A stretch of 64,000 bases of DNA, from the NCBI RefSeq assembly GCF_003574315.2, contig NZ_AP025739.1, positions 6,696,001-6,760,000 on the forward strand, in the 5' to 3' direction. Positions 379 to 59,388 of this stretch are shown piece by piece. The position numbers were made by a program, and so were the translations under genes. The notes beneath the pieces are model-generated. The model did not search any database. It had not been told where the DNA came from and was given only the letters and a program-made list of their open reading frames with translations. The DNA comes from Capsulimonas corticalis (GTDB lineage: Bacteria; Armatimonadota; Armatimonadia; Armatimonadales; Capsulimonadaceae). Position 1 is the stretch's first letter. Every line of letters begins with the position of its first letter.

Positions 379-1209
379 ATGTCACGCAAGGTCCACCGCA
401 AGCCACAAGCCTTTACGCTCATTGAACTGCTCGTCGTGATCTCCGTGATCGCGATCATGGCCGCGATCCTCTTCCCAGTGTTCGCGAAGGCGCGGGAAAA
501 AGGCCGGCAGGCCGCCTGCATCAGCAATGAGAAACAGCTGGGCGTCGCCATTCTCGCCTACACCCAGGATTACGATGAGGTGCTGCCGCTGCGCACGACC
601 GCCGAGGAGGAATACAGCTGGAAGTACGAGATCTCGCCCTATCTGAAGTCCACGGAAGTCTTCAAATGTCCGTCCAATCCCTCGCGCGGCAAGGATGATT
701 ACAACACCGCGATGGAATTGCAGCCGCTGGGAATGCCCGTCTTTCCGCCATCGTACGCCGTCAATCGCGGGAGCGGCGCCAACGGCCCGTTTGTCGATGA
801 GCCCCTGCCCGCCGGAGCTACTCCGACATCACTCCGGGACGCAACATCCGTCGTCCATCTCGCCAGCATCCAATCGCCGTCGCAGGTCATCGGCGTCGTC
901 GAAACCACCGCGCTCTACACGGACTTCATCGTCACGGACTTGCTCTGGCGCGCCCCAAATCCATCCCTCTTCGAAGAATCGGGAAACCTGTTCGCCGGAC
1001 ACAACGGGCGCGGTAATTTCCTCTTCATGGACGGCCATGTCAAAGCCATGAAACCGCTCACCACGCTCGACCTTGGGGACGGCGGCTCCGGCCCGGTAAA
1101 CCTATGGACCAACGACAATAAACCGTTCCTCGGCGACCCCAATGCGTCCGCCCCCGGCGATACGACGGGGAAAACAGTACTGAGCTATTCGGAGGAGATG
1201 TATCAATAA
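379..1209 (+). CDS. DUF1559 pseudopilin-like protein (prepilin N-terminus, H-X9-DG C-terminus)
   Basis: 276 residues. The N-terminus is a class III prepilin signal: a basic leader, then [20 protein letters not shown] with the +5 Glu, and a hydrophobic helix followed by FPVFAKAREKGRQ. The residue before the cleavage point is Ala rather than the usual Gly. The C-terminal part carries the H-X9-DG signature (His in AGHNGRG, then FMDGH about ten residues later). Such proteins should be processed by a prepilin peptidase and displayed like minor pseudopilins; their precise function is unknown. A good ribosome binding site (AGGGAG at about 366-371) supports this ATG. One of four such genes in the window. 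Confidence 0.93.
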   Translation: MSRKVHRKPQAFTLIELLVVISVIAIMAAILFPVFAKAREKGRQAACISNEKQLGVAILAYTQDYDEVLPLRTTAEEEYSWKYEISPYLKSTEVFKCPSNPSRGKDDYNTAMELQPLGMPVFPPSYAVNRGSGANGPFVDEPLPAGATPTSLRDATSVVHLASIQSPSQVIGVVETTALYTDFIVTDLLWRAPNPSLFEESGNLFAGHNGRGNFLFMDGHVKAMKPLTTLDLGDGGSGPVNLWTNDNKPFLGDPNASAPGDTTGKTVLSYSEEMYQ

Positions 1210-4255: not shown

Positions 4256-5083
4256 ATGCGCACCCGTTCCCGTCTCGGGTTTACCTTAATTGAATTGCTC
4301 GTTGTGATCGCTATTATCGCGATTCTCGCCGCCATCTTGTTCCCTGTCTTTGCCCAGGCGCGGGAAAAGGCGCGAGCCATCTCATGCATGTCCAATATGA
4401 AACAGATCGGACTGGGCGTCCAGATGTACATTCAGGACAACGATGAGCGTCTGTTCTTCCGAGGGGCGAAGGACAACACGGCGTCCAGCCTGGGCAAGAT
4501 CCGCACCGGAGCGGTCGTCGGCTCCAGCACGAGTCCGGCCGCTCTGGCCGCAGCCTGGTACAACGTCATCTTCCCATACATCAAGGCAAAGGGCGTCTAT
4601 TCCTGCCCGAGCGATCCCGGCCCCACCCCAAGCCTGATGCCGGACGGCGTGTCCACGGTGCTTCGCTCCTATGCCGCCGCCGACTCCACGGAAGGTTTGT
4701 CGCTGGCGCAGGTCGATGTTCCCGCAGACACGATTGTCGTCACGGAGAAATGGGATAAGTCTCTTGCCGGCGTCGCGAACACCGAGTCCTGGTTTGAAGT
4801 TTGGGACGGCGACATGGCGCACGAGCCGACCCAGCCCGGCCGCATGGTCAAATATGCGAACCGGCATCAGGGATTTATGAACTGCGCCTTCTTCGACGGC
4901 CACGCGAAGGCGGTCCGGCCCGATGCGATCTGGAAGAGCGCGGATCTGACGGGATGCAACCTCATTCATCGCTATCCGGCGCCCGGAACATCGGGTATCT
5001 CTAAGTGTGACGGATTTTCGACGGGCTGTATCACTAACGACCCGACCAAAAATATGTGTATGAGCTTTACCTACAACAACTAA
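4256..5083 (+). CDS. DUF1559 pseudopilin-like protein
   Basis: 275 residues. Classic prepilin N-terminus: basic leader MRTRSRLG, then cleavage before [19 protein letters not shown], followed by [13 protein letters not shown]. The central part has the SNMKQIGLG / YIQDNDE sequence and Cys residues usual in the family. The C-terminus has H-X9-DG (His in RHQGFMN, then FFDGHAKAV). Expected to be processed by a prepilin peptidase and anchored by its N-terminal helix. It has its own promoter and a strong terminator, so it is probably monocistronic. Start supported by TCGGAG seven bases upstream of the ATG. Confidence 0.95.
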
Positions 5084-7147: not shown

Positions 7148-8703
7148 CACCCTTCCCGCTGCGGCTAAGCTTGTATCACATCTTTTGGGGGTGTACGAAA
7201 TTGACGCAGAATATGGGATCCTAATATCGGAGGAACAACGATGTTAGGATCCGGGTGGGCCGAAAACGAAATTCAGGGGACAAAGTTTGGCGATGAGCGC
7301 TTCCGCCGTGTCATGGGGGAGACACTGGAAGCAAAGTTTTCTCAACCCAACGTCAGCTTTTCCACGATGTGCGGCAATGCTTTGAGACAATCGGCGGGAC
7401 GTCTATTACGCCACCCAGAAACCAATGCGACGGATCTCCTGGAGGGACACCGGCAAGCAACTCTGCAGCGATGCCTGGGAGAGAAAACCATTGTCGTAGC
7501 CCAGGACACCAGTTCCTACAATTATTCCACCCACTACGCCACCGAAGGGCTGGGGCCGATCAATGACTCGAAAAAGGCGATGGGCATTCATCAGCATTCC
7601 GCGCTGGCGATGACACCCGACAGACTTCCGCTGGGAGTGGTGGAGGCTCACTTTTGGGCGCGCCCCCTGGAGAAGCAAGCGGCGGCGCAGCGACGCAAAA
7701 AGCCCATTGAGGAGAAGGAAAGCCATCGCTGGCTGCGAACGGCGAAACATGTGGAGCAGCTCTTTGAACCCCACCTTCGCCAAGGAGGAGAGGTGGTCGT
7801 GGTCGCGGACCGGGAAGCGGATATCTTCGACCTGCTAGCACAAGAGCGTGCTTCGGGCCTGGAACTGATTATCCGCGCCGCTCACCCCCGCACTGTTAAA
7901 GTGATGGATGGGGAGGTGATGGATGGGGAGGTGATGGACCGTTCGGAGGGCGCCACGAAAGAACCGGCCTATTGTTCTCTTCTGGTAGCGGCTCAGCAGG
8001 GAAACGTCCTGGGCCACTATACGCTTCGTGTTCCTGGACGGACCCAGGCTCAAGATCGTGACGCCACGATGGAGATGCGCCATTGCCGTGTGGAGGTTCA
8101 GCCGCCCAAAGCCGGTGTGGGACATGAGGAGAAAGCCGTTCCGATCCAAGTGGTAAGCGCTCGGGAGATCGTCCCTGAGGGAGATCCCCATGCCCCTTTG
8201 GAATGGATCATGATCACCACTGTGAATGTGATCGATATGGCGTCGGCGCGGCGTGTCCTGGATCTTTATACGTGTCGTTGGGAGATTGAGCGATTTCATT
8301 TTACGCTCAAATCGGGCTGCCAAGCCGAGCGTCTTCAGATGGACGATCTAGATACTCTTTGCAATACGCTCTCGCTTTACCTGGTGGTTGCCTGGCGATT
8401 GTTATATGTGACGCATTTGGCGCGTGTGATGCCCGAAATCCGCGCCGACCAGATTATGGATACAACAGAGCTTGCCATTCTCAATCAGCAGAGCCGTACT
8501 CCGATCACGACAATTTCGCAGGTGGTGACGGCCATCGCGCAGCTTGGGGGCTTTGAGCCCTACAAAGGCGGCCCGCTACCTGGGGTAAAAGTGCTCTGGA
8601 ATGGGCTCAGAAAGCTCGACTCCATGGCGGCTGGATGGAGGCTCGCCATGGAGTCGATCAGAACCCAAAATGTGATACAAGCTTAGCCGCTGCGGGAGGG
8701 GTG
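7148..8703 (+). mobile_element. IS4-family (IS50/Tn5-like) insertion sequence
   Basis: A single transposase gene is bounded by inverted repeats. The left end holds GCGGCTAAGCTTGTATCACA from 7161 then TCTTTTGGGG; the right end, ending at 8690, is its reverse complement with small differences (ACCCAAAATGTGATACAAGCTTAGCCGC). Similarity weakly continues outward to 7148 and 8703 (CACCC-TCCCGC against GCGGGAGGGGTG), so the exact ends are uncertain. No convincing 9-base target duplication was seen. Total length is about 1.53-1.56 kb, normal for IS4-group elements. The gene is intact, so the element may be active. Confidence 0.85.
7241..8686 (+). CDS. IS4-family transposase (DDE type)
   Basis: 481 residues. 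The N-terminus (FGDERFRRVM) and the block VVAQDTSSYNYSTHYATEGLGPI match Tn5/IS50-like transposases, the latter holding the first catalytic Asp. VVVVADREADIFDLL has the second Asp. The Y-R-E-K signature is complete: Tyr-Thr-Cys-Arg, three residues, Glu, six residues, Lys in YTCRWEIERFHFTLK. It catalyses cut-and-paste transposition of the surrounding element. GGAGG nine bases upstream supports the ATG. A 15-base tandem repeat at 7901-7939 encodes VMDGE-VMDGE-VMD, an in-frame expansion between strands that probably sits in a surface loop. Confidence 0.95.
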   Translation: MLGSGWAENEIQGTKFGDERFRRVMGETLEAKFSQPNVSFSTMCGNALRQSAGRLLRHPETNATDLLEGHRQATLQRCLGEKTIVVAQDTSSYNYSTHYATEGLGPINDSKKAMGIHQHSALAMTPDRLPLGVVEAHFWARPLEKQAAAQRRKKPIEEKESHRWLRTAKHVEQLFEPHLRQGGEVVVVADREADIFDLLAQERASGLELIIRAAHPRTVKVMDGEVMDGEVMDRSEGATKEPAYCSLLVAAQQGNVLGHYTLRVPGRTQAQDRDATMEMRHCRVEVQPPKAGVGHEEKAVPIQVVSAREIVPEGDPHAPLEWIMITTVNVIDMASARRVLDLYTCRWEIERFHFTLKSGCQAERLQMDDLDTLCNTLSLYLVVAWRLLYVTHLARVMPEIRADQIMDTTELAILNQQSRTPITTISQVVTAIAQLGGFEPYKGGPLPGVKVLWNGLRKLDSMAAGWRLAMESIRTQNVIQA

Positions 8704-8704
8704 G

Positions 8705-8819
8705 CCCGAAGGGCCGGGGTGGGTTTGCCAGGGAGTACACTAAGCGCCGGGGTAGGTCACCCGGAAGGGTCGCGCGAAGCGCGGGGGTGGGTTTGCCAAG
8801 GATGCCCCGAAGCGCCAAG
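8705..8819 (+). repeat. Intergenic repeat, right copy flanking the IS
   Basis: Contains two GGTGGGTTTGCCA units (about 8718-8731 and 8786-8799), GGGAGTAC, TAAGCGCCGGGG, and GGGTCGCGCGAAGCG then CGGGGGTGGGTTTGCCA (8767-8798), which is 31/32 identical to the inverse copy left of the IS. The unit is GC-rich and partly palindromic. No gene lies between 8687 and 8861. Confidence 0.7.
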
Positions 8820-8861
8820 GTAGAAAAAGCCCAGGCAGCCCAAGCGCCAGTAATAACTTCC

Positions 8862-9608
8862 TCAAACCCCAAGCGCTTGAATGGCAAGTCGCGCGGCGTC
8901 CGCGCCGGAATATTGCTGCTGGCCGGTGATCAGATTGCCGTCGCGGACGGCGTGGGGCTTGAACCGGCCGTCCACGATGAAGTTTGTTCCCGGCAATTTC
9001 TTGGCCTCTTCCTCAATCCAGAAGGGCTGGATCTTTCGCTGGACAAAGGCGTCGGCGAACTCTTCTTCCGAATTGGCGAAACCGGTCCATGTCTTGCCTT
9101 GGACGAGCAGGCTGTCGTCGGCGAGCCGCGTTTTGAGAAGGACGGCGGTCGCATGGCAGACGATCGCCGTGATCTTGCCGGTCTGGTAGAAGTCCGACAC
9201 GGCTTGATGGACGCGCTCGTCTGCGTAAAACGTCACCATCGGCGCTTGTCCGCCCACGAGGAACAGGACATCGTAATCGTCCAGACGCACGGAGTCGAGC
9301 CGGAGCGAATGGGTCACCTTCTCCATCAAATGGGGCGAACTGAGAAAGCCCAGGCTGATCAGGTCCGACGCCGAGTAGCCGCTGGAATCGCGCGGATCGC
9401 TCCAGGAGTCGGCCTTGAGCTCGCCGCCGTCGGGGCTCGCGATCTCCACGATGTAGCCGCTTTCGGTAAATTCCCAGTAAGGGTGCGTCAGCTCCGACCA
9501 CCAGAAACCGACCGGCCAGCCGGTTTGGGGAGACACCGCTGGATTGGAGGCTAAAATCAAGACTCGTTTGGGATGGGATGGGTTCAGCAGATCGATGGCT
9601 TTACTCAA
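8862..9608 (-). CDS. DJ-1/PfpI superfamily protein (Hsp31-like)
   Basis: 248 residues. The fold elements are KRVLILASNP at the N-terminus, YDVLFLVGGQAPMV before the nucleophile region and ITAIVCHATAVLL, whose Cys is the conserved nucleophile at the elbow, followed by His. Length and the WPVGFWWSELTHPYWEF insertion resemble the Hsp31/glyoxalase III branch (about 230-290 residues). Likely a glutathione-independent methylglyoxal-detoxifying enzyme or protein chaperone; the exact activity is not determined by sequence. Its start overlaps the end of the upstream cysteine-hydrolase-like gene by 8 bases, so the two are translationally coupled. Confidence 0.85.
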   Translation of the reverse strand: MSKAIDLLNPSHPKRVLILASNPAVSPQTGWPVGFWWSELTHPYWEFTESGYIVEIASPDGGELKADSWSDPRDSSGYSASDLISLGFLSSPHLMEKVTHSLRLDSVRLDDYDVLFLVGGQAPMVTFYADERVHQAVSDFYQTGKITAIVCHATAVLLKTRLADDSLLVQGKTWTGFANSEEEFADAFVQRKIQPFWIEEEAKKLPGTNFIVDGRFKPHAVRDGNLITGQQQYSGADAARLAIQALGV

Positions 9609-10851: not shown

Positions 10852-11754
10852 TCACCGAGCCGTCTCCTGCAAAAAGGCGCGCGGGGTCTGCCCGGTCAGC
10901 CGCTTGAAGTGGCGCGTGAAGTGGCTTTGGTCGCTGAAGCCCAGCTGCTGGGCGACCTCGCCCACGGAGAAGCGTCCCGACCGAAGCAGCGTCCTGGCCC
11001 GCTCGATCCGCCGCCGCAAAACGTAATCGTAGGGCGAGGCGCCGGTGGCCTGTTTGAACTGGCGTGAAAAGTAGTAGGGGCTGATCTGCGCGACGGCGGC
11101 CATTTCGGCCAGCGTCAGGTTTCGGTGGAGGTGGGCGTCGATATAATCGATCACGCGGCGCAGCTTGGGACGCGAAAGCGCGCCGATCCCATCCAGAATG
11201 GGCTCGGGAAAGGCGTTGTAGCGGCGGAGCAGATGGACGGCCAGCGCGGTCGCCAGGCTCTCGGCGAACAGCGGACCACCCAGGCTGCCGCTTTCCAGCT
11301 CCGCCTTCAGCGCCAGCCCCAGGTATTGGACTTGCAGATCGAGGCCGCCGTGGCTTTCGACGAGTTCGATCCGGTCGGCGTGGACGGTTTCGCGGGCGAC
11401 ATTCGCGACCAGATGCGGGTCGATCGCGATCGCCAGCACGTCCGCCGCCTCATGCCAGCGCAAATCGCGCGGGACGCCGGCGGGAACAAGGCAGACATCG
11501 CCGGCGGCCATGCTTCGGCTGCGATACTGCTTCCCGGACTTCCACTCCAGCGTATTGGACGGACTGAGGTGGAGCGTCAGCAAATGGTCCGGCAGCAGGT
11601 TCTCCCTCGGCTCCATCGGGGGCAAACGAAACTGCTCGACAATGATTCCCTTCCAGCCCGCGTCCGCGCTTGACAACAGCAGGGACGACTCCGGGACGAC
11701 CGACAAACGTTCGCCGCTCTCACTGTCCGCATAATGTATCAGGCTGACGGGCAT
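10852..11754 (-). CDS. AraC-family transcriptional regulator
   Basis: 300 residues. The N-terminal two thirds is a cupin-like effector domain (GDVCLVPAGVPRDLRWH). The C-terminal ~100 residues hold two helix-turn-helix motifs: LTLAEMAAVAQISPYYFSRQ followed by FKQATGASPYDYV, and VGEVAQQLGFSDQSHFTRHF followed by KRLTGQTPRAFL, the AraC/XylS signature. Most likely it controls the downstream genes (muconolactone-isomerase-like, hydrolase, DJ-1-like), which lie on the same strand. The inducer is unknown, though the enzymes suggest aromatic or electrophile stress. Confidence 0.93.
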   Translation of the reverse strand: MPVSLIHYADSESGERLSVVPESSLLLSSADAGWKGIIVEQFRLPPMEPRENLLPDHLLTLHLSPSNTLEWKSGKQYRSRSMAAGDVCLVPAGVPRDLRWHEAADVLAIAIDPHLVANVARETVHADRIELVESHGGLDLQVQYLGLALKAELESGSLGGPLFAESLATALAVHLLRRYNAFPEPILDGIGALSRPKLRRVIDYIDAHLHRNLTLAEMAAVAQISPYYFSRQFKQATGASPYDYVLRRRIERARTLLRSGRFSVGEVAQQLGFSDQSHFTRHFKRLTGQTPRAFLQETAR

Positions 11755-11830: not shown

Positions 11831-14800
11831 CTATTGTCTGACGAGCCGCCCTTTGACATGCCCGTCGACGAATGCGACGGTTTCCCAGGACGCGCCGTCA
11901 AAAGGGCGGGCCATCGCAGCATCGCGAAACAGCGGCTGCTCGGCGGGACGAGCGATGTTCACGAGGCTACCGCCAGACAGCGCCCCCTCGAACTGATAGG
12001 GCTGTCCGGTCAGCGGGCTCACGAATACGTCGTTCCCGATGGCCGGATGGGAGCGTCCCGTGTTCGGATCGATCCGCTTTTCCTTCGCCGCGATATAGGA
12101 CGCGAGTGTCCGGCGAAGCTGCGCGAGCGATTGGAGATGGGGGAGTTTCCAATTGTGGTCGGCTTCATACTGAACGATCGCAAGGCCGATCAGCTGCATG
12201 TTGCTCTTCGTCGCCGCCGACTTTGCGGCCCAGCCCACCCGCTGATCGTACTCGGTGGGAGTCATCACGCTGTTCCCGATGGTGGGGTAGAGCGGAATAT
12301 CCCGGAACTCCACGATTTGGTACGCCCGTGTTTGCAGCTGAAATTCCTTGATGTTCGCCCTCGCCAGCTTTGGATTCACGCTGAAGATCGTTTCGACATT
12401 TGTTTGCATGGCCGAGGCGATCTCCGTCCTCTTCGCCCCGTCGAGCGGAACGACCGAGCCGTCTCGGTAGACCGCAACAAAGCGGCGCGCCAGCTTCGCG
12501 ATCGACGCTCCTCCAGGCAAAATCGGATCGCGATGCATCTTTCCCCCGGCGCCGGGATACCACAACAAAGGTTTGTCGCCGAGGATCAGCTCCGGAAAGA
12601 GGAACGCGGTGCGCTTGTCCGGCCACTCAGCGGACACGACCGGCGCCGAAAAAGCAGGCGTCGCCTCAGTCGGCAGCGTCAAGATAGTCCGCCAGGGCTC
12701 CGTGGAAACGCCGACACGAACCGTACAAGATTTAGAGTTAGGTGAGAGAGATTCCACCCTCATTTCTCTATCGAAAGCCTCATTGGAGTAAGAGAATGCG
12801 GAATCTTTTTGAGCATTCAGCATCTCGTAGTAGCTGCTGCGATCGCGGCTCGCCGACTTGATTGAATAAGACACCTGGTAGGGAATCGCCGGGTCTTTGG
12901 GATTTACCGGCCGCATCCAGTTGACGGGCGCGCCTACTTCGAGCGCGGTGATTGGGGCGCCGTCGGTATTCCACCACGCCCCGGCCGACATATTCCAACG
13001 GTTCTCCTCACGCACCGGCCGGCTTATTCCGTTAAAGCTCACCTCGGCGCCGTTAGGCAGCATGGCCGTGTGTCCATGCGCGACGATCCGATCGACGAAC
13101 GCATTGTCCGAAGCAGCCGTCGTCGCCGCAAGGGTCTGAAGACTACCCAGTTCCCCTGGCAGGTCCGCGTCGGGCGCGTTCAAACGATCGGCGAGCGACT
13201 GCGTATCCGCGACCGTTCGAAAACATCCGGCGAGTTCCAACGTCCCGCCATGAATCGGCATCGCGATCGTCGGCGCGGAGAGCATCCTGGCGTCGCGGAC
13301 GATCCCCATGGTTTCGCCGACATGCGACTCCGTGAACGCCGCCAGCTTCCGAACGCCTTCCGAACTCAGGGTGATCTTCACCACGGGTTCACGACCATCG
13401 GCGCCGCCCAGCTTCGCCTGCGCGCTCACAATATCGGCGTCCGTCAGGATCATCTTGCCGCTCATCAGAAAGGCCGACCAGCGATTGTAATTATGGGCTC
13501 GTTTTTGAATTTCCGCTTTGCGAGTTGGCGACAATATGGCGATATTCTCACCGGAAGTCACCGATGAAAAAGAGGCGTCGAAAAATGTCTGTTTGTCGCG
13601 GCGGTCGATGAATTGATAAACCTCACCACCACTTTGATCACGCGCGATCGACATCGACACCGGACGGTTGGGATCTCGCCGGGAGGAGAGGTCACGCCAG
13701 TAGAGAAATTCCAGGATTCCCCGGCTGCGACGATGGACTACCGAAACGGTCGTCGCGGGCGCGGCGTTTGTCTCGCCGTGAGCGGCCGTTCGCGCGATGG
13801 GATGCAGCGCTGACAGGGGCAGAACCAATACGGCGGCGAGGCCACAGGCGGCGAAGATCCATTTGCGGCTCAGCGAACGCCGATTCACTCCCGCCGTAAG
13901 CACGGCGCGGATGCGTCCTTCCGTTTCACGCGGCAGCGCCATGGCGATTGCCGCCGTTCGCGGATTGGCGCCGGGAGGCAGCGACTTCAGGACATCGACC
14001 AGGCGCTGCGCGTATTCCGTCGGAGGTACGCCGGCGCGCAGCACACTGTCATCGCAGGCGCGCTCGCCCGCTTCGCGCATTTGCCGCGACGCGAGCCAGA
14101 CCAGGGGATGAAACCAATAGAAGGCGCACGCCAGAGTGGCCGCGCACTGCGTCAGCCAGTCGCCGCGACGGATATGCGCCAGCTCATGAAGCAGCACGGA
14201 GCGCAGGCACTCCTCGGACCACTCTTCCGACTGCGCGGGCAGCAGAACGACCGGTCGAACGACGCCCCAGGTGATCGGAACCGCGACACCGCCCTCGCGG
14301 GATCGCCGAATGTCTAAGTTTCGACGCAGCCCCACCGCGCGAAGACACTCCCGTGCAAGGCCGTTCGCACACTCGTCCAGCGCCAAGCTCCCCTGACGAG
14401 CGCTCGTTACCAAGCGCAGCCCCAGGAAGAATCGCCCCAGCGAGACAAACACGCCCAGCGCCCAAACGACAGCGACAATGGCTGTCCAGGCGATTCGCGG
14501 CGGTTCGACCGGCGATGCGACAGCCGCCGGCGAAGCAACGCTTGACACATCCAACGCGCCTGCCGCCATCGGCGACGCGATTGCGGTATGCTGCTTCTTT
14601 TCGGGCATAGCGATAGGGGCGGCGTCACTCTGCGCCGATGCGGAGATCGCCTCCGCCGGCGTGTTCTTCCTGATAGGAGCGACCGCCGAGCGCATCGTAT
14701 AAGCGACATTCCATGTGGGAAGAGCAAAAGAGAATAATGGCAGCAGCAGAACGCCGGCGATGGCCGACGCCCAGACGGCGTGACGCGCCGCCGCCGATGC

Positions 14801-14899
14801 GCGTCGTAAGCCGCGCGCTATCGCCATGGCGGCCAGCAGCAAGAACGTACACTTCGCGAGCAGAACAAAAACCGGCGGGGCCATCCATGCGTTCATCAT
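11831..14899 (-). CDS. Giant BlaR1-type M56 metallopeptidase with SecD-like and pseudopilin-like regions
   Basis: 1022 residues, well above the ~350-600 usual for BlaR1/MecR1. Residues 1-360: membrane-embedded M56 peptidase, with hydrophobic helices at about 9-27, 41-61 and 140-165, HELAH zinc motif near 237-241 (LLHELAHIRRGDW), and EAGERACDDSVL downstream. Residues ~500-590 resemble the SecD/SecF periplasmic P1 head: VVKITLSSEGVRKLAAFT, VGETMGIVRDARMLSAP, then PIHGGTLELAGCF. The last ~130 residues (KSNMQLIGLAIVQYEAD to VAFVDGHVKGRL) resemble the DUF1559 globular domain. The first ATG overlaps the blaI stop as ATGA. It should sense an outside signal and cleave BlaI. Confidence 0.85.
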   Translation of the reverse strand: MMNAWMAPPVFVLLAKCTFLLLAAMAIARGLRRASAAARHAVWASAIAGVLLLPLFSFALPTWNVAYTMRSAVAPIRKNTPAEAISASAQSDAAPIAMPEKKQHTAIASPMAAGALDVSSVASPAAVASPVEPPRIAWTAIVAVVWALGVFVSLGRFFLGLRLVTSARQGSLALDECANGLARECLRAVGLRRNLDIRRSREGGVAVPITWGVVRPVVLLPAQSEEWSEECLRSVLLHELAHIRRGDWLTQCAATLACAFYWFHPLVWLASRQMREAGERACDDSVLRAGVPPTEYAQRLVDVLKSLPPGANPRTAAIAMALPRETEGRIRAVLTAGVNRRSLSRKWIFAACGLAAVLVLPLSALHPIARTAAHGETNAAPATTVSVVHRRSRGILEFLYWRDLSSRRDPNRPVSMSIARDQSGGEVYQFIDRRDKQTFFDASFSSVTSGENIAILSPTRKAEIQKRAHNYNRWSAFLMSGKMILTDADIVSAQAKLGGADGREPVVKITLSSEGVRKLAAFTESHVGETMGIVRDARMLSAPTIAMPIHGGTLELAGCFRTVADTQSLADRLNAPDADLPGELGSLQTLAATTAASDNAFVDRIVAHGHTAMLPNGAEVSFNGISRPVREENRWNMSAGAWWNTDGAPITALEVGAPVNWMRPVNPKDPAIPYQVSYSIKSASRDRSSYYEMLNAQKDSAFSYSNEAFDREMRVESLSPNSKSCTVRVGVSTEPWRTILTLPTEATPAFSAPVVSAEWPDKRTAFLFPELILGDKPLLWYPGAGGKMHRDPILPGGASIAKLARRFVAVYRDGSVVPLDGAKRTEIASAMQTNVETIFSVNPKLARANIKEFQLQTRAYQIVEFRDIPLYPTIGNSVMTPTEYDQRVGWAAKSAATKSNMQLIGLAIVQYEADHNWKLPHLQSLAQLRRTLASYIAAKEKRIDPNTGRSHPAIGNDVFVSPLTGQPYQFEGALSGGSLVNIARPAEQPLFRDAAMARPFDGASWETVAFVDGHVKGRLVRQ

Positions 14900-15309
14900 T
14901 CCGTCCCTTCGTGGGTCTTGTCGCGCCCTTCGGTCTTCGCCTGCTGGATCATGCCTTCCAGGCGACTCAGCTCGTCCTCGGTCGGCCGCATCTGCTGGTT
15001 CGCGAGCAATGTCGCGACTGCGGATTCCACGCTGCCTCCGAAAAACGTCTGCACTACATTCTCAATCGCCGACTTCGCCACCGCCGCCCAACTCTCCGTC
15101 GGCTTGTAAACGTACTTCGTCCCCACCTCGGTGTGGCGGATCTGCCCTTTCTCCTCCAAAATGCGCATCAGCGCTCGAACCGACGAATAACTCGGCGGGT
15201 CCGGCAGCGCCTCCAGCACCTCGGCCACGGTCGCTTCACCGCGCGCATAGATGATTTCCATGATCTGCCGCTCGCGCCGACTCAGCCGATGCGGCAATAC
15301 TTTGTTCAT
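14896..15309 (-). CDS. blaI: BlaI/MecI-family repressor (first copy)
   Basis: 137 residues from MNKVLPHRLSRRERQIMEII. Winged helix-turn-helix of the BlaI/MecI/CopY type: ATVAEVLEALPDPPSYSSVRALMRILEEKG is the recognition part, and VYKPTESWAAVAKSAI marks the linker whose cleavage releases DNA in this family. The ATG at 15309 has AAGGAG eight bases upstream; a TTG six codons earlier is less likely. It overlaps the M56 gene by four bases, the classical blaI-blaR1 pair. Two operator-like palindromes sit on its promoter, so it is probably autoregulated. Confidence 0.95.
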   Translation of the reverse strand: MNKVLPHRLSRRERQIMEIIYARGEATVAEVLEALPDPPSYSSVRALMRILEEKGQIRHTEVGTKYVYKPTESWAAVAKSAIENVVQTFFGGSVESAVATLLANQQMRPTEDELSRLEGMIQQAKTEGRDKTHEGTE

Positions 15310-15340: not shown

Positions 15341-15401
15341 TGCTAAATATATTAGCATCACAGACGAGCCGTGTCAAGGGTTTATGCGAAAAAATTTAGC
15401 A
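15341..15401 (-). promoter_or_regulatory. Promoter and two BlaI-type operators of the first blaI-M56 operon
   Basis: On the minus strand TTGACA (15377-15372) and TAATAT (15354-15349) are spaced by exactly 17 bases. One palindrome, TGCTAA-5-TTAGCA (15341-15357), covers the -10. A second, TGCGAA-5-TTAGCA (15385-15401), lies just upstream of the -35. The pair brackets the promoter, as expected for repression by BlaI dimers. Confidence 0.85.
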
Positions 15402-18132: not shown

Positions 18133-19026
18133 TTACCGGGGGCTGAATGTCGCCGTGAACTGGCCGTCGTCAGTGCCCGCCGCCATGCCCTGGACGCTGA
18201 CGGTGCAGTCGGTGGGCGAGCCGCCGCCCTGGACGCAGTCTCCGGCCAGCGCGACGGATCCCGCCGATACCGAGTTGGGGCGAAGCCATTTGGCGTGGCC
18301 GTCGCACAGCAGGAAGTTGGAGCCGTCCGTGTGGCGGCCCTTCAAAGCCGCGAGGCCGCCATTCGGGTCCGCCGTACAGGTCATCCCGCCCATGCAGCCC
18401 GTGGCGAGCGCCGCGCCCCGCGACTGATTGCCGATGCTGAACGGGTAGACGATGTTGTTGGTCGGGCCGCCGCCGTTAAGCACCGCCGACACGACGGTCG
18501 ATGTGCTGCGCTCCGCCGGATCCGTCAAAGGACCGTACACGCCCTGAACTTCCGAGAGCAGAACCGTCTTCGCCGGGGAAGCCTGCGCGGAAATCGCCTG
18601 GCCGACATGCGGATCCGTGCCGCTGCCGGGATCCGTGCGCGTCAAATTGAGGTTCGCGGCGTAGGAGTTCACGTAACTCGTCACCCCGCCGCTCGGCGCG
18701 GGCGGCTTCGTGGCGTCGTCGGGACACTGATAAACGCCGGTGCTCTTGATATAAGGATAGATTTCGCCGCCCCAGCCCTGGCCGAGGTAATCACCCTGAG
18801 ACGCCGGGTAAGCGGCTGTGATCGGGAAATTATCGTCGCTATCCTGTTCGTACTGCATAAACCCCAGTCCAAGCTGCTTCATGTTGGAAAGGCAGGACGT
18901 TTGCCGAGCCTTCTCGCGAACCTTCGCAAAAACCGGGAACAGGATCGCCGCGAGCACCGCGATGATGGCGATGACGACAAGAAGCTCAATCAGCGTAAAG
19001 CCAGTGCGGTAAGATTTAATCGACAT
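18133..19026 (-). CDS. DUF1559 pseudopilin-like protein
   Basis: 297 residues. Prepilin leader MSIKSYRTG then [19 protein letters not shown], and LFPVFAKVREKARQTSCLSN. The middle is Gly/Pro/Ser-rich and carries pairs of Cys (residues near CPDD, GCMGGMTC, GDC-GG-TDC) that could form disulfides after export. H-X9-DG is intact (GRHTDGSN, then LLCDGHAKW). Start supported by AAAAGGA nine bases upstream. A TTGATG/TAAAGT pair about 60 bases upstream on the minus strand may be its promoter. It is divergent from the Nudix gene. Confidence 0.95.
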   Translation of the reverse strand: MSIKSYRTGFTLIELLVVIAIIAVLAAILFPVFAKVREKARQTSCLSNMKQLGLGFMQYEQDSDDNFPITAAYPASQGDYLGQGWGGEIYPYIKSTGVYQCPDDATKPPAPSGGVTSYVNSYAANLNLTRTDPGSGTDPHVGQAISAQASPAKTVLLSEVQGVYGPLTDPAERSTSTVVSAVLNGGGPTNNIVYPFSIGNQSRGAALATGCMGGMTCTADPNGGLAALKGRHTDGSNFLLCDGHAKWLRPNSVSAGSVALAGDCVQGGGSPTDCTVSVQGMAAGTDDGQFTATFSPR

Positions 19027-50530: not shown

Positions 50531-51049
50531 CGCAGCCTCAGAAGAAGATTCGGGAACACCCACGCCGCATTTCCGCCCCAGACATCCCAATTCCGCGCAA
50601 CAACGCAACAAATTGCGTTAATAAGTTTTATCTATTGTCATAATTCGCTAAAATTGCCTTATTCAGTTTTATCAATACATCAAATGTGAGAATTTTCTCA
50701 AAAAATAATACTTGACACCCATTCGAGTTGAACATATAATAGTGAAAACCCGTTGACCAGACCGATACATTCCGTTTCATCTCAACAATCTTGTCAATTA
50801 TTGATACGAAAATAGAGAACACCAAGAAATGGTTTTATCAATTAGAAAATGATAACACTTAACTAAAAACTTTTTAGAGGAAAGGAGAGAAGTCTTATTT
50901 GCTATAATCGGTGTTTTTATGTAAAAAGAACGTCAGTTTCGATCGATTTCGTCAATGGCTTACGATAGAGTTAATAATGATTCTATCGCAACAATTGCTG
51001 TATTTCACATGAATTCCATCCATGATACTTGACTAAGGAGACACGACCC
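50531..51049 (+). promoter_or_regulatory. AT-rich leader region with a perfect consensus promoter
   Basis: No gene of reasonable length. Far more AT-rich than the surroundings. TTGACA (50712-50717) and TATAAT (50735-50740) are 17 bases apart, an exact sigma-70 consensus. If it drives the DUF1559 gene at 51050, the leader is about 300 bases. Another TATAAT is at about 50902-50909 (TGCTATAATC), with no clear -35. A palindrome CGATAGA/TCTATCG (50963-50988) lies near the gene. An untranslated regulatory RNA is possible but not shown. Confidence 0.6.
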
Positions 51050-51892
51050 ATGAACGGCAACACTGCTCAGCGCTCGGGCGCACGAGCTTTTACACTTATC
51101 GAATTACTCGTTGTTATCGCTATCATCGCGATACTTGCATCAATCCTGTTCCCGGTCTTCGCCAAGGTCCGAGCGCAGGCGCGGAAGATCGCCTGTCTGT
51201 CCAATGAAAAGCAGATCGGGCTTGGAATTCTTCAATATGTACAGGACAATGATGAGAAATTTCCGTCCAGCGACTGGTTCAATCACGCGCACTGTGATTT
51301 AACAACAGCGGGATGTGGGAAGTTTCGCCCGGATAACGGCCTCCTGACCTATGCCGACGCCATCTACCCCTATGTCAAGAGCACCCAGGTCTTTCAGTGT
51401 CCCAATCACCCGAAAGACGCTCTCGGCTACGGTTTGAACACGTTCCTGACTCCTGTCGCTAACCCGTCCGCCTTTATGACGGCGACGGGCTGGTATCGGG
51501 ATGAAGGTTTTAACTATAAATATGTCGCCACAATCGCGCAAATTAATGAACCTTCGAATCGCATTATGATTGGTGAGCTGGCAAGCGGAAACGGCGCCGG
51601 CGACGCCGGGCCTTGGTACAACACACTCTATCAAGACAATTTCAATACTTTAGCGGCCGGGCAGAACGGTTTCTGCAACTATGTGTTCTGCGACGGTCAC
51701 GCGAAGTCCATGAAAGTGAAGGCGACGATCTGGCCGAAATTCCTGTGGAACGCCGTGGACGACTGGAATTTGCAGGGCAACAACACATCCATGGTCGCCA
51801 TCCCGAGCGGAACGTTGTCGTACGCCGGAAATGAAGCGGGGGCTCAGGCCCTTTATAACGGCGCGTTCGATCCCAAAAACACGGATTTGTAA
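51050..51892 (+). CDS. DUF1559 pseudopilin-like protein (variant H-X9-DG)
   Basis: 280 residues from the ATG at 51050 with AAGGAG ten bases upstream. Prepilin helix [20 protein letters not shown] (Ala, not Gly, before Phe), then LFPVFAKVRAQARKI and SNEKQIGLG. At the C-terminus the pattern is AGQNGFCNYVFCDGHAK: the His of H-X9-DG is replaced by Gln while DGH is kept. Otherwise normal for the family. Its long AT-rich leader sets it apart from its three relatives. Confidence 0.93.
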   Translation: MNGNTAQRSGARAFTLIELLVVIAIIAILASILFPVFAKVRAQARKIACLSNEKQIGLGILQYVQDNDEKFPSSDWFNHAHCDLTTAGCGKFRPDNGLLTYADAIYPYVKSTQVFQCPNHPKDALGYGLNTFLTPVANPSAFMTATGWYRDEGFNYKYVATIAQINEPSNRIMIGELASGNGAGDAGPWYNTLYQDNFNTLAAGQNGFCNYVFCDGHAKSMKVKATIWPKFLWNAVDDWNLQGNNTSMVAIPSGTLSYAGNEAGAQALYNGAFDPKNTDL

Positions 51893-56296: not shown

Positions 56297-56321
56297 CAGA
56301 ACGAAGAAATTTCTCAACAGG

Positions 56322-56380
56322 TGCGAATTATTTCGCACAACCACTTGACAAAGGGGCCTAAACATGCGAAAATATTCGCA
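56322..56380 (+). promoter_or_regulatory. Promoter and two operators of the second blaI-M56 operon
   Basis: TTGACA (56345-56350) and GAAAAT (56368-56373) are 17 bases apart. TGCGAA-4-TTCGCA occurs upstream of the -35 (56322-56337) and again over the -10 (56365-56380). Same layout as at the first blaI operon. Confidence 0.85.
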
Positions 56381-56395
56381 CAAGGAGTCGCTCTT

Positions 56396-56848
56396 ATGAC
56401 TAACCCATTGGCGCATCGCCTCAGCCGCCGCGAGCGGCAGATTATGGACGCGGTTTACGCGCTCGGCCAGGCGTCGGCGAATCAGGTGCTGGAGCAGATG
56501 GACGATCCGCCCAGCTATTCGTCGATCCGGAAGCTGCTCGCGATCCTGGAGGAGAAAGGGCATCTTCGCCATATCCAGGATAAACAAAAGTATGTCTATC
56601 TGCCCACACAGCCGCGCCAGAACGCGGCGCGGTCGGCGATCAAGCAGGTCTTGCAGACGTTCTTTGGCGGCAATGTCGAGACGGCGGTGGCGACACTGCT
56701 TTCCGAGGCCGATCTGGAGCTGACGGACGAGCAGGCCGTGCGGCTCTCCGCGCTGATCGATGAAGCCGCAGGCGGCGAGACGAAGAATCGCGCGACTCCA
56801 TCGAGCCACGATCGCACTGACGGCCACGACGGGGAGGAACAGTCATGA
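56396..56848 (+). CDS. blaI: BlaI/MecI-family repressor (second copy)
   Basis: 150 residues from MTNPLAHRLSRRERQIMDAV; the ATG at 56396 has AAGGAG ten bases upstream, whereas the GTG at 56321 lies inside the operators. Same winged helix as the first copy (ASANQVLEQMDDPPSYSSIR, KLLAILEEKGHLRHI) and a linker KYVYLPTQPRQNAARSAI. The acidic C-terminus is longer than in copy 1. It overlaps the M56 gene by four bases. Confidence 0.95.
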   Translation: MTNPLAHRLSRRERQIMDAVYALGQASANQVLEQMDDPPSYSSIRKLLAILEEKGHLRHIQDKQKYVYLPTQPRQNAARSAIKQVLQTFFGGNVETAVATLLSEADLELTDEQAVRLSALIDEAAGGETKNRATPSSHDRTDGHDGEEQS

Positions 56849-59388
56849 CATCTCTCAATACGATTGCATTGTTATCGATTGGCGTCATCCTGAAGGCGAC
56901 GGCGCTGCTCGCGACGGCGACGCTGGCCGCGTTTGCCGCGCGCCGGGCGTCGGCGTCCGTGCGGCATCTCATCTGGGCGCTGGGGCTGACGAGCGCTCTT
57001 GTTCTTCCGCTGCTGTCCGTGATGCTGCCGCATTGGAGCGCCACCGTTCCCGCAGCTCCCGCCGCGATCCGCACGGCGGTGAACGCCGCCCCCCAAGATC
57101 AGCCTCAGATCACCATGCCGCCCACAGTCATCGCGCCAGCCGCGGCGCCGTCGCCTCAGTCGCCGCAAGTATCGATCAAAACCGCTTCGTCGCCAGCGAC
57201 GATTGACGCGGCGCCGTCCCTATCTTTGGCTCATACTTCCACAGCGACTCCAGCGAGGCCGCAGCAAACGATTCTCTGGCCTTATCTCATCATTGCGGCC
57301 TGGATCACTGGCGCCCTCTTGGTCCTCTCTCGGTTGATGCGGGGCATGGCGGCGGTGCGTCGTGCGGAACGCGGCGCGCGTCTTGTCTCAAACGGATCGA
57401 TGGCGCGCGCCGCTGAAGACGCCAAGAAAGCGATGCCCACGCGCCGCCATGTGGACGTGCTTCTGGCGAGCGCAAGTGAGCCAATCCGGGTTCCCATTAC
57501 CTGGGGAGCGCTCTGCCCCATCATCCTGCTGCCGGCCAAGGCGACGCAATGGCCGCGAGAACGCGTCAAGGCGGCGCTGCTGCACGAGATGGCGCATATC
57601 CGCCGCTGGGACTGGGCGATGCTGGTGATGTCTCGCATTGTCTGCGCCGTTTACTGGTGGAACCCACTGGCGTGGCTGGCCGCGCGCAAAATGCGTGAGG
57701 AAAGCGAGACGGCGTGCGACGATCTGGTGGTCCTGGCCGGAATGCCCGCCGCCGAATACGCCCGTCAGCTATTGGAAGTCGCGCTGGCCGCGCGCAAGCA
57801 AGGCGGGATCGCTCTGGGCGCGGTGGCGATGGCGCAGACGCCTGGTGTCGAGGGACGATTGCGGGCGGTGCTGGCGACGGGTCTCGCGCGCCGCCCAATG
57901 ACCGTACGCCGGGCGATCGTCGCCGCAACCATCGCGGCGGTCCTGGCCGGCCCGCTCGCCGCACTGAGACTGGCGGCGAAGACTCCCGCCATGGCCACCG
58001 TACCGGACGCCGCGCAGCTTCAGTTGCACGATGGGTTCACGCTGCGCTACGCCGTGACGATTACGGATCTAAAGACGCGCGAGCAGCAGATGAGCGAGTA
58101 CCAGCAGCTCCAAAAGTCTTACCAGAAGTGTCTCAAACAAGACCCGCACTGGCAGCCGATCCCGGACGAGTTCTACGGCCCCTTCTCGTACTATCAAAGC
58201 CGGCGCCCAAAGGTGCGTCATTTGGTCCTGACCGTCTCCGCGCACAATGGCCGCCTCCTCTGGCAAAGCACGGAAGGCGCGGACACGTTCAGCCTTGTCT
58301 ACAACGGCAAGGGAACGCAGCATTTCTGGAACGGCCATGCGGGGCGCGTCGAACCGGGCCTGAGTTTCGCGTCCATGTCCGCCTGCCCCTTGCCGGCCGT
58401 GGGATTGCCCTATGTTCCATTGATGAAACAAGCAACGCTCTCGGCGACATCGGGCGCTTTGCAAACTTGGGACGCGCAATGCCCGTTGGAAGACGCCGTA
58501 ATCACCAACGGTGAAGCGCTGTATTGGCCCGGGCAGGTCCATGTGATTCGTGATGGCGGCGTTTGGAAGGTGCGCGATATTGACACTCTGGAGCAGCGGT
58601 TTGATTTTCTGACCCACCAGCGGTTCCAGGGTCTGTGGATCGCTTCGAGCATGCGCTTGAACAAATACAGTACATCCACGAAGCCGGTGCCTGCTTCCTT
58701 CTCAAGCCTGGAAGCCGCCCACGATTGGACCAAGACCCACCGGACGCAGACCAGTTCCTGTGACTACCAGCTGCTCTCGGCCACCGAAAAGCCGGTCGAT
58801 CTCGCGACGCTGACGCAATATCCGTCGCCCAAGCCGACGAACACCGATCTCACGGCCCGCGAGGCTCAGCAAGCCCAAAGTATCGAGCAATTACGCGTGA
58901 CGCAAGCCTTACAGTTGCGCTACCACCTCCAGGATTGGGCCGGCAAAAACCGCGGCTTGCTGACACACATGGAGCAGGCGCAGCCCTCGAACCTCGCCGC
59001 CGCCATTCCGGTGATCCAGTCACTCAACAGCCTGCCTTTTCCCCTGTGGCAAACCGATCCCCGCGCGGGCCGTCCCTGGGACGGAGATCCGCGCACTGCG
59101 CCAAACGGCGAATTGCCGGCGTTTGCCTTGTGCTATCCGGCGCAGCTCACGTTCACGCATTTGCAGCGCTCACCCGAGGCGATCGACAAACGGCTGCGCG
59201 ACGCCTTTGCAAGCCGGCATGACCTGCCGATTGCAACCTCGGTAGGGACTCGGGACACCATGATTGTTCTTTGGGCCAGTGGTCGGATCACAAAGTCCGC
59301 CTCCACATATCAATTTGCCGGTCACGGCAAGCCGTTCCGGAGGACGACACACGAGACGGAGATTGTGCGAGGGTTCTTTGAAGGATAA
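56845..59388 (+). CDS. BlaR1-type M56 metallopeptidase sensor
   Basis: 847 residues. N-terminal helices (IALLSIGVILKATALLATAT, LIWALGLTSALVLPLLSVML, ILWPYLIIAAWITGALLVLS), zinc motif HEMAHIRRWDWAML, and ESETACDDLVVLAG as in M56. The ~480-residue C-terminal part after ~375 looks extracytoplasmic (LQLHDGFTLRYAVTITDLKT and further beta-rich sequence) and may be the sensor; it lacks the SecD- and DUF1559-like parts seen in the first M56 protein. Expected to cut its BlaI partner when triggered. Confidence 0.9.
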   Translation: MTSLNTIALLSIGVILKATALLATATLAAFAARRASASVRHLIWALGLTSALVLPLLSVMLPHWSATVPAAPAAIRTAVNAAPQDQPQITMPPTVIAPAAAPSPQSPQVSIKTASSPATIDAAPSLSLAHTSTATPARPQQTILWPYLIIAAWITGALLVLSRLMRGMAAVRRAERGARLVSNGSMARAAEDAKKAMPTRRHVDVLLASASEPIRVPITWGALCPIILLPAKATQWPRERVKAALLHEMAHIRRWDWAMLVMSRIVCAVYWWNPLAWLAARKMREESETACDDLVVLAGMPAAEYARQLLEVALAARKQGGIALGAVAMAQTPGVEGRLRAVLATGLARRPMTVRRAIVAATIAAVLAGPLAALRLAAKTPAMATVPDAAQLQLHDGFTLRYAVTITDLKTREQQMSEYQQLQKSYQKCLKQDPHWQPIPDEFYGPFSYYQSRRPKVRHLVLTVSAHNGRLLWQSTEGADTFSLVYNGKGTQHFWNGHAGRVEPGLSFASMSACPLPAVGLPYVPLMKQATLSATSGALQTWDAQCPLEDAVITNGEALYWPGQVHVIRDGGVWKVRDIDTLEQRFDFLTHQRFQGLWIASSMRLNKYSTSTKPVPASFSSLEAAHDWTKTHRTQTSSCDYQLLSATEKPVDLATLTQYPSPKPTNTDLTAREAQQAQSIEQLRVTQALQLRYHLQDWAGKNRGLLTHMEQAQPSNLAAAIPVIQSLNSLPFPLWQTDPRAGRPWDGDPRTAPNGELPAFALCYPAQLTFTHLQRSPEAIDKRLRDAFASRHDLPIATSVGTRDTMIVLWASGRITKSASTYQFAGHGKPFRRTTHETEIVRGFFEG

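Follow-up and report, generated by a model that had tools for sequence, protein, structure and literature searches.

The best-known role of BlaR1-type receptors is the sensing of beta-lactams, and for most other M56/BlaI pairs no signal is known. The locus described here raises the question of what such a receptor may perceive when its ectodomain is made of other parts. It lies in a stretch of 64,000 nucleotides of Capsulimonas corticalis (hereafter the window), whose genome is a single contig of 7.6 Mb.

Architecture of the receptor

An earlier note on this DNA, made from the sequence alone, described a BlaR1-type sensor of about 1022 residues fused to SecD-like and pseudopilin-like domains. 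The gene is indeed an uninterrupted open reading frame of 1022 aa, with the following parts (window coordinates):

11831..14899, minus strand: M56 receptor ORF, 1022 aa, four predicted TM segments
13904..14845, minus strand: Peptidase_M56 domain, residues 19-332 (Pfam, 6.2e-32)
13172..13723, minus strand: SecD P1-derived segment, residues 393-576, comprising the last base strand, a lineage-specific linker and the P1 head (Pfam, alignment, tree)
12242..13102, minus strand: middle module, residues 600-886 (LPNG...FQLQTRAYQIVEFRDI), common to other M56 ectodomains
11852..12214, minus strand: pseudopilin (DUF1559-type) head, residues 896-1016, without the prepilin N-terminal helix (profile and alignment tests)

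The protein belongs to the M56 family by its peptidase domain, which has both HExxH and the distal E, its multi-TM N-terminus, its predicted extracytoplasmic C-terminal domain and its paired BlaI-type gene. The HELAH motif is intact (residues 238-242, 14174-14188), the distal E is present in an ERACDD motif (residues 279-284), and a simple hydropathy scan predicts TM segments at residues 4-31, 40-65, 134-161 and 346-369. With a BlaR1-like topology, the SecD P1 head and everything C-terminal of it would be extracytoplasmic. The only solved structures matching the receptor in a phmmer search of the PDB are those of SecDF (3aqo, 4e-6; 3aqp, 1e-5) and BlaR1 (8exs/8exp, 2e-4). It scores 83 bits against the NCBIfam BlaR1 equivalog (cut-off 400) and 45.9 bits against the secD equivalog (cut-off 244). 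Neither Pfam nor NCBIfam gave any transpeptidase or beta-lactamase match, so the penicillin-binding sensor domain is absent. The receptor thus resembles BlaR1/MecR1 of S. aureus and B. licheniformis in having an M56 zinc peptidase with HExxH between membrane segments, but differs from them in its ectodomain, which consists of a SecD P1 segment, a middle module and a pseudopilin head, three parts where the earlier note had two. This overall architecture is almost certainly as described.

A chimeric gene arising from mis-assembly or a frameshift was considered and rejected as vanishingly improbable: nothing was found in its favour, the genome is in one contig, the frame is open, and an artefact is contradicted both by the full-length paralog that the genome encodes and by a relative from a second assembly.

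Origin of the SecD P1 segment

The SecDF_P1_head family (PF22599) matches residues 476-574 (13178-13474) with an E-value of 3.8e-15 and 56 bits, against a curated cut-off of 27, which together with the phmmer matches to 3aqo and 3aqp bears out the SecDF P1-head-like stretch noticed earlier. The homology to the P1 of Thermus thermophilus SecDF covers about 100 residues of the head. With the SecDF of the host itself (L048:5167-8070(-), 967 aa) the alignment is longer and extends over residues 393-576, from the strand preceding the head through the linker to the head end. This linker (FRDG.QIR...LTxxQQ...WxxFL) is long only in the SecDFs of the host's family and order, and it is shared, with the preceding strand, by the receptor segment. 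The receptor is not a part of the translocon motor, and both the N-terminal P1 base (GLDIxGG) and the RND-type membrane domain of SecD are missing from it.

In a maximum-likelihood tree, the three SecD-bearing sensors (the receptor, its paralog and a relative in the same-genus draft genome G002) form one clade (support 95/95). A split with 96/96 support puts these sensors and the SecDFs from four genomes of the family on one side and the phylum's 13 other SecDFs on the other; the branch of the G002 sensor is long, and a tree of the head only is weaker (82/69). Because the linker is confined to this family and order and the sensors are placed beside the host's SecDF, the segment derives from the house translocon, and its capture in a single event is the simplest reading. 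In the host SecDF itself the P1 linker (FRDxxQIRxEY...LTPDQQ) appears to be duplicated in tandem, and this extra copy is absent from the SecDF of G002.

Middle module and C-terminal pseudopilin head

The middle module has the consensus LPNG...WW...FxLQTRxYxxxEFRxI. When the three SecD-bearing receptors are combined into a profile, it matches several further M56 receptors within the order, and also small proteins adjoining one of them. The presence of the module in these other receptors indicates that an ectodomain module in wider use received the SecD piece on its N-terminal side and the pilin head on its C-terminal side. Two small proteins with the module, encoded beside an M56 receptor gene in G002 (L060:6309-8791(-)), may be soluble partners.

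The C-terminus (residues 871-1022) has no significant Pfam or NCBIfam family, and PF07596 gives no match up to an E-value of 10. BLAST within the host genome nevertheless recovered, at 5e-6, a pseudopilin whose prepilin start reads GFTLIELL and, at 1e-5, a soluble protein in which the head is repeated. When 21 standalone pseudopilin heads of the host genome and relatives were made into a profile, with all sensors left out, it matched the paralog at 1.2e-7 and the receptor at 4.4e-4, whereas none of 1000 shuffles scored better than E = 2. A bridging profile, made from four heads of two tandem genes for triple-head soluble proteins, matches the receptor at 1.3e-15 and the paralog at 1.8e-15. In hhalign comparisons, the sensor pair aligns with the soluble heads at 99.2% probability over 100 columns, and with the pseudopilins at 98.1% over only the N-terminal 41 columns. 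The DUF1559-like domain proposed earlier for the C-terminus is therefore borne out by three profile tests, although Pfam misses it, and the two motifs from which it had been recognised, SNMQLIGLAIVQYEAD and FVDGH, are the two conserved ends of the pseudopilin head (SN..GLA..QY..D and DGH-K). Residues invariant in an alignment with four pseudopilins of the window are S-N, G, Y, D, Y, P, P, DGH and K, which are positions characteristic of the family.

We conclude from these comparisons that the receptor ends in a pseudopilin head of the DUF1559/H-X9-DG type, retaining the SN..GLA..QY..D and DGHVK ends. It differs from the PF07596 pseudopilins in being shortened, in forming the C-terminal end of a receptor, in scoring under the Pfam threshold, and in the absence of the prepilin cleavage site and hydrophobic helix (GFTLIE). 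AlphaFold2 models of the head, with the four window pseudopilins as alignment (mean pLDDT 39.9), and of the 652-aa ectodomain from the single sequence (mean pLDDT 34.1) were too poor for fold searches.

The family is very large in this organism, with at least 150 PF07596 matches in the genome (150 listed of 167 reported). The four DUF1559 pseudopilins of the window (379-1209, 4256-5083, 18133-19026 and 51029-51892) have prepilin N-termini. The tandem genes for soluble proteins (L050:5264-7252(-) and 7301-9238(-)) each encode three pseudopilin heads and a repetitive C-terminal region, with no prepilin start.

Repressor gene, promoter and operators

The surroundings of the receptor gene comprise:

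14896..15309, minus strand: BlaI-type repressor gene (Penicillinase_R; Pfam, 8e-26)
15341..15357, no strand: operator 1, exact TGCTAA-N5-TTAGCA, overlapping the -10 box
15349..15377, minus strand: sigma-70-like promoter of the blaI-receptor operon, TTGACA-17-TAATAT (independent consensus scan)
15385..15401, no strand: operator 2, with one mismatch, just upstream of the -35 box
10852..11754, minus strand: AraC-family regulator, 76 bp downstream of the receptor (Pfam)

The blaI gene lies directly upstream of the receptor and its 3' end overlaps the receptor start by 4 bp; its start was set at MNKVLPHR, as in relatives, in a frame open to 15327. The repressor partner assumed in the earlier note is thus present, with clear candidate operators on its promoter, an arrangement of adjoining repressor gene and dyads shared with the BlaR1/MecR1-BlaI/MecI systems. 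With up to one mismatch, TGCTAA-N5-TTAGCA has only four sites in the whole 7.6 Mb genome, two at each of the blaI promoters of the receptor and of its paralog, versus 22 occurrences of a control pattern (the operator read backwards). No further site was found beyond these two SecD-bearing operons, either in the genome at this threshold or in the window with two mismatches. This confinement suggests that the two receptors form a small circuit, probably cross-regulated. The G002 relative's gene is preceded by the same promoter-operator layout, and other blaI genes of the family have related but different dyads.

The AraC-family gene is possibly co-transcribed with the receptor, no terminator being predicted in the 76-bp gap. 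The next genes downstream of the paralog and of the G002 relative are on the opposite strand. The window also holds a second M56/BlaI pair (56321-59388(+)), whose M56 protein (847 aa; Pfam, 8.9e-31) shows neither a SecD nor a pilin head at the search thresholds applied.

Paralog and relatives in the phylum

The paralog (G000:C1:1967984-1971202; L047:5985-9203) is full-length, with 1072 aa and its own BlaI, 72% identical. It keeps all modules in order, with identities of 55% for the M56 domain, 35% for the SecD part, 32% for the middle module and 45% for the pilin head. The closest relative in G002, a draft genome 69% complete, is L059:637-3246, with a BlaI 84% identical; here a degenerate SecD part, for which Pfam gives no match to the P1 segment, is followed by the middle module and the end of the protein, the pilin head being absent. 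In another receptor of G002 (L063:9143-11038(-)) the last TM segment leads straight into a pilin head and then a CarboxypepD_reg domain, which represents a second M56-pilin arrangement in the same genus. Among 201 genomes of the phylum, the ectodomain with all modules occurs only in the genome of the window, and among 47 M56-like ORFs from the order and controls, P1 or pilin heads are restricted to these receptors, both at search thresholds that may hide weaker fusions.

The receptor and its BlaI very probably constitute an M56/BlaI derepression switch. Even so, the P1 and pilin heads might only dock the receptor to a pseudopilus-like structure or to the Sec translocon, leaving the middle module to bind a ligand such as an envelope or cell-wall cue. 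This reading, which we consider rather unlikely, would fit the middle module being the part common to M56 relatives without SecD or pilin parts, as well as the reported contacts of SecD P1 with PpiD and similar factors associated with the translocon (PMC7793623). The divergence, however, is not that expected of domains held to a conserved partner by strict docking, since the added domains (31-45% identity) diverge about as fast as the middle module (29-32%).

Search for P1 heads on receptors in other phyla

Most of 79 planctomycete genomes have one SecDF, and some also encode extra P1-head proteins. Those inspected include an M56 receptor of 2072 aa with SecDF_P1_head at its extreme C-terminus (L194:268-6486, 1.4e-17), a Ser/Thr kinase with a TM segment and a C-terminal SecDF_P1_head (L195:639-2351(+), 3.7e-10) and a protein with TPR repeats and a P1 head (L199). 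The M56 receptor resembles that of the window in its P1-bearing ectodomain and in having a BlaI-like gene upstream (L214:2781-3227, recognised from the sequence by eye and not by a profile), but its P1 head comes last, after other repeats, and no pseudopilin head was found in it. The planctomycete P1 tree is too weak to place this head relative to SecDF. No M56-P1 fusion was found in Acidobacteriota, among 90 sampled genomes whose few extra P1 proteins were inspected. The occurrence of P1 heads on a receptor, a kinase and a TPR protein makes the head look like a module reused outside the translocon. The earlier note knew of no description of the three-part design, and the literature searched likewise contains none of a fusion of M56 with SecD P1 or a pseudopilin head; the joining of M56 and P1 head, on the other hand, is also found in a planctomycete.

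These distributions bear on the idea that the ectodomain grew by accretion of domains from exported proteins that are abundant, so that its SecD and pilin parts would be folded ballast or relics with no specific sensing. The G002 relative, with its degenerate P1 and no pilin head, is in line with this, as is an ectodomain evolving much faster than BlaI (29-45% versus 72-84% identity). Relics would hardly be expected, however, to be retained by both paralogs as complete sets of modules in the same order within open frames of 1022 and 1072 aa, nor the pilin head to retain both conserved ends. The second M56-pilin joining and the recurrence of P1 heads on unrelated receptors also argue against accretion, and we regard it as unlikely.

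Possible signal and mechanism

The best overall explanation, which we hold tentatively, is that of a one-step receptor of the BlaR1 type in which the beta-lactam sensor has been replaced and an exported polypeptide serves as the signal. An exported polypeptide, such as an unassembled or stalled pseudopilin-type protein or another Sec client, would engage the P1 head; alternatively, it would compete with the tethered pseudopilin head, acting as partner or decoy. The ectodomain would change upon engagement of the client, and the cytosolic zinc protease would then cleave BlaI, by analogy with S. aureus BlaR1, leading to derepression of the blaI-receptor promoter and of that of the paralogous twin.

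Engagement of its sensor makes BlaR1 cleave BlaI directly (PMC9834060), and with this precedent the intact motif, the predicted topology and the operators make the same switch likely in the receptor, although cleavage of its own BlaI is assumed by analogy. An export- or pseudopilin-related signal is plausible without being probable. The sensing of periplasmic folding or pseudopilin-type signals, as proposed in the earlier note, likewise stands as an inference, and so does any output beyond autoregulation. Sensing of exported polypeptides is favoured because the SecD P1 head binds translocating substrate (PMC7793623) and the numerous DUF1559 proteins offer a large pool of potential clients. Against it, the P1 segment stands without the SecD base and membrane motor and is degenerate in G002, where the pilin head is missing. 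Moreover, the neighbourhoods of M56 genes show no significant enrichment in pseudopilin genes (P about 0.19), and no sec or pseudopilin gene in the genome has the operator at up to one mismatch.

The closest parallel for exported-polypeptide sensing is the VemP-SecD2F2 secretion monitor of Vibrio, where Sec export is linked to expression via the SecD P1 head, as described in the literature for VemP and proposed here for the receptor. VemP works by translation arrest, whereas the receptor would use a membrane protease and a repressor. A broader generalisation, improbable in our view, would make the P1 head a recurrent sensor of exported polypeptides, taken from the translocon and set on varied chassis (M56/BlaI receptors in Armatimonadota and Planctomycetota, a Ser/Thr receptor kinase in Planctomycetota), used here with a tethered pilin head as decoy or ligand in a protease-based export monitor.

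The ectodomain, made of a piece of the organism's own Sec motor and the head of a very large exported family, provides a concrete clue to the signal of an M56 receptor and suggests that it may monitor protein export instead of antibiotics. The signal is directly testable, since the promoter is defined and so is the operator, both being limited to two loci. If our reading is true, the receptor would represent a new coupling of Sec export to transcription.
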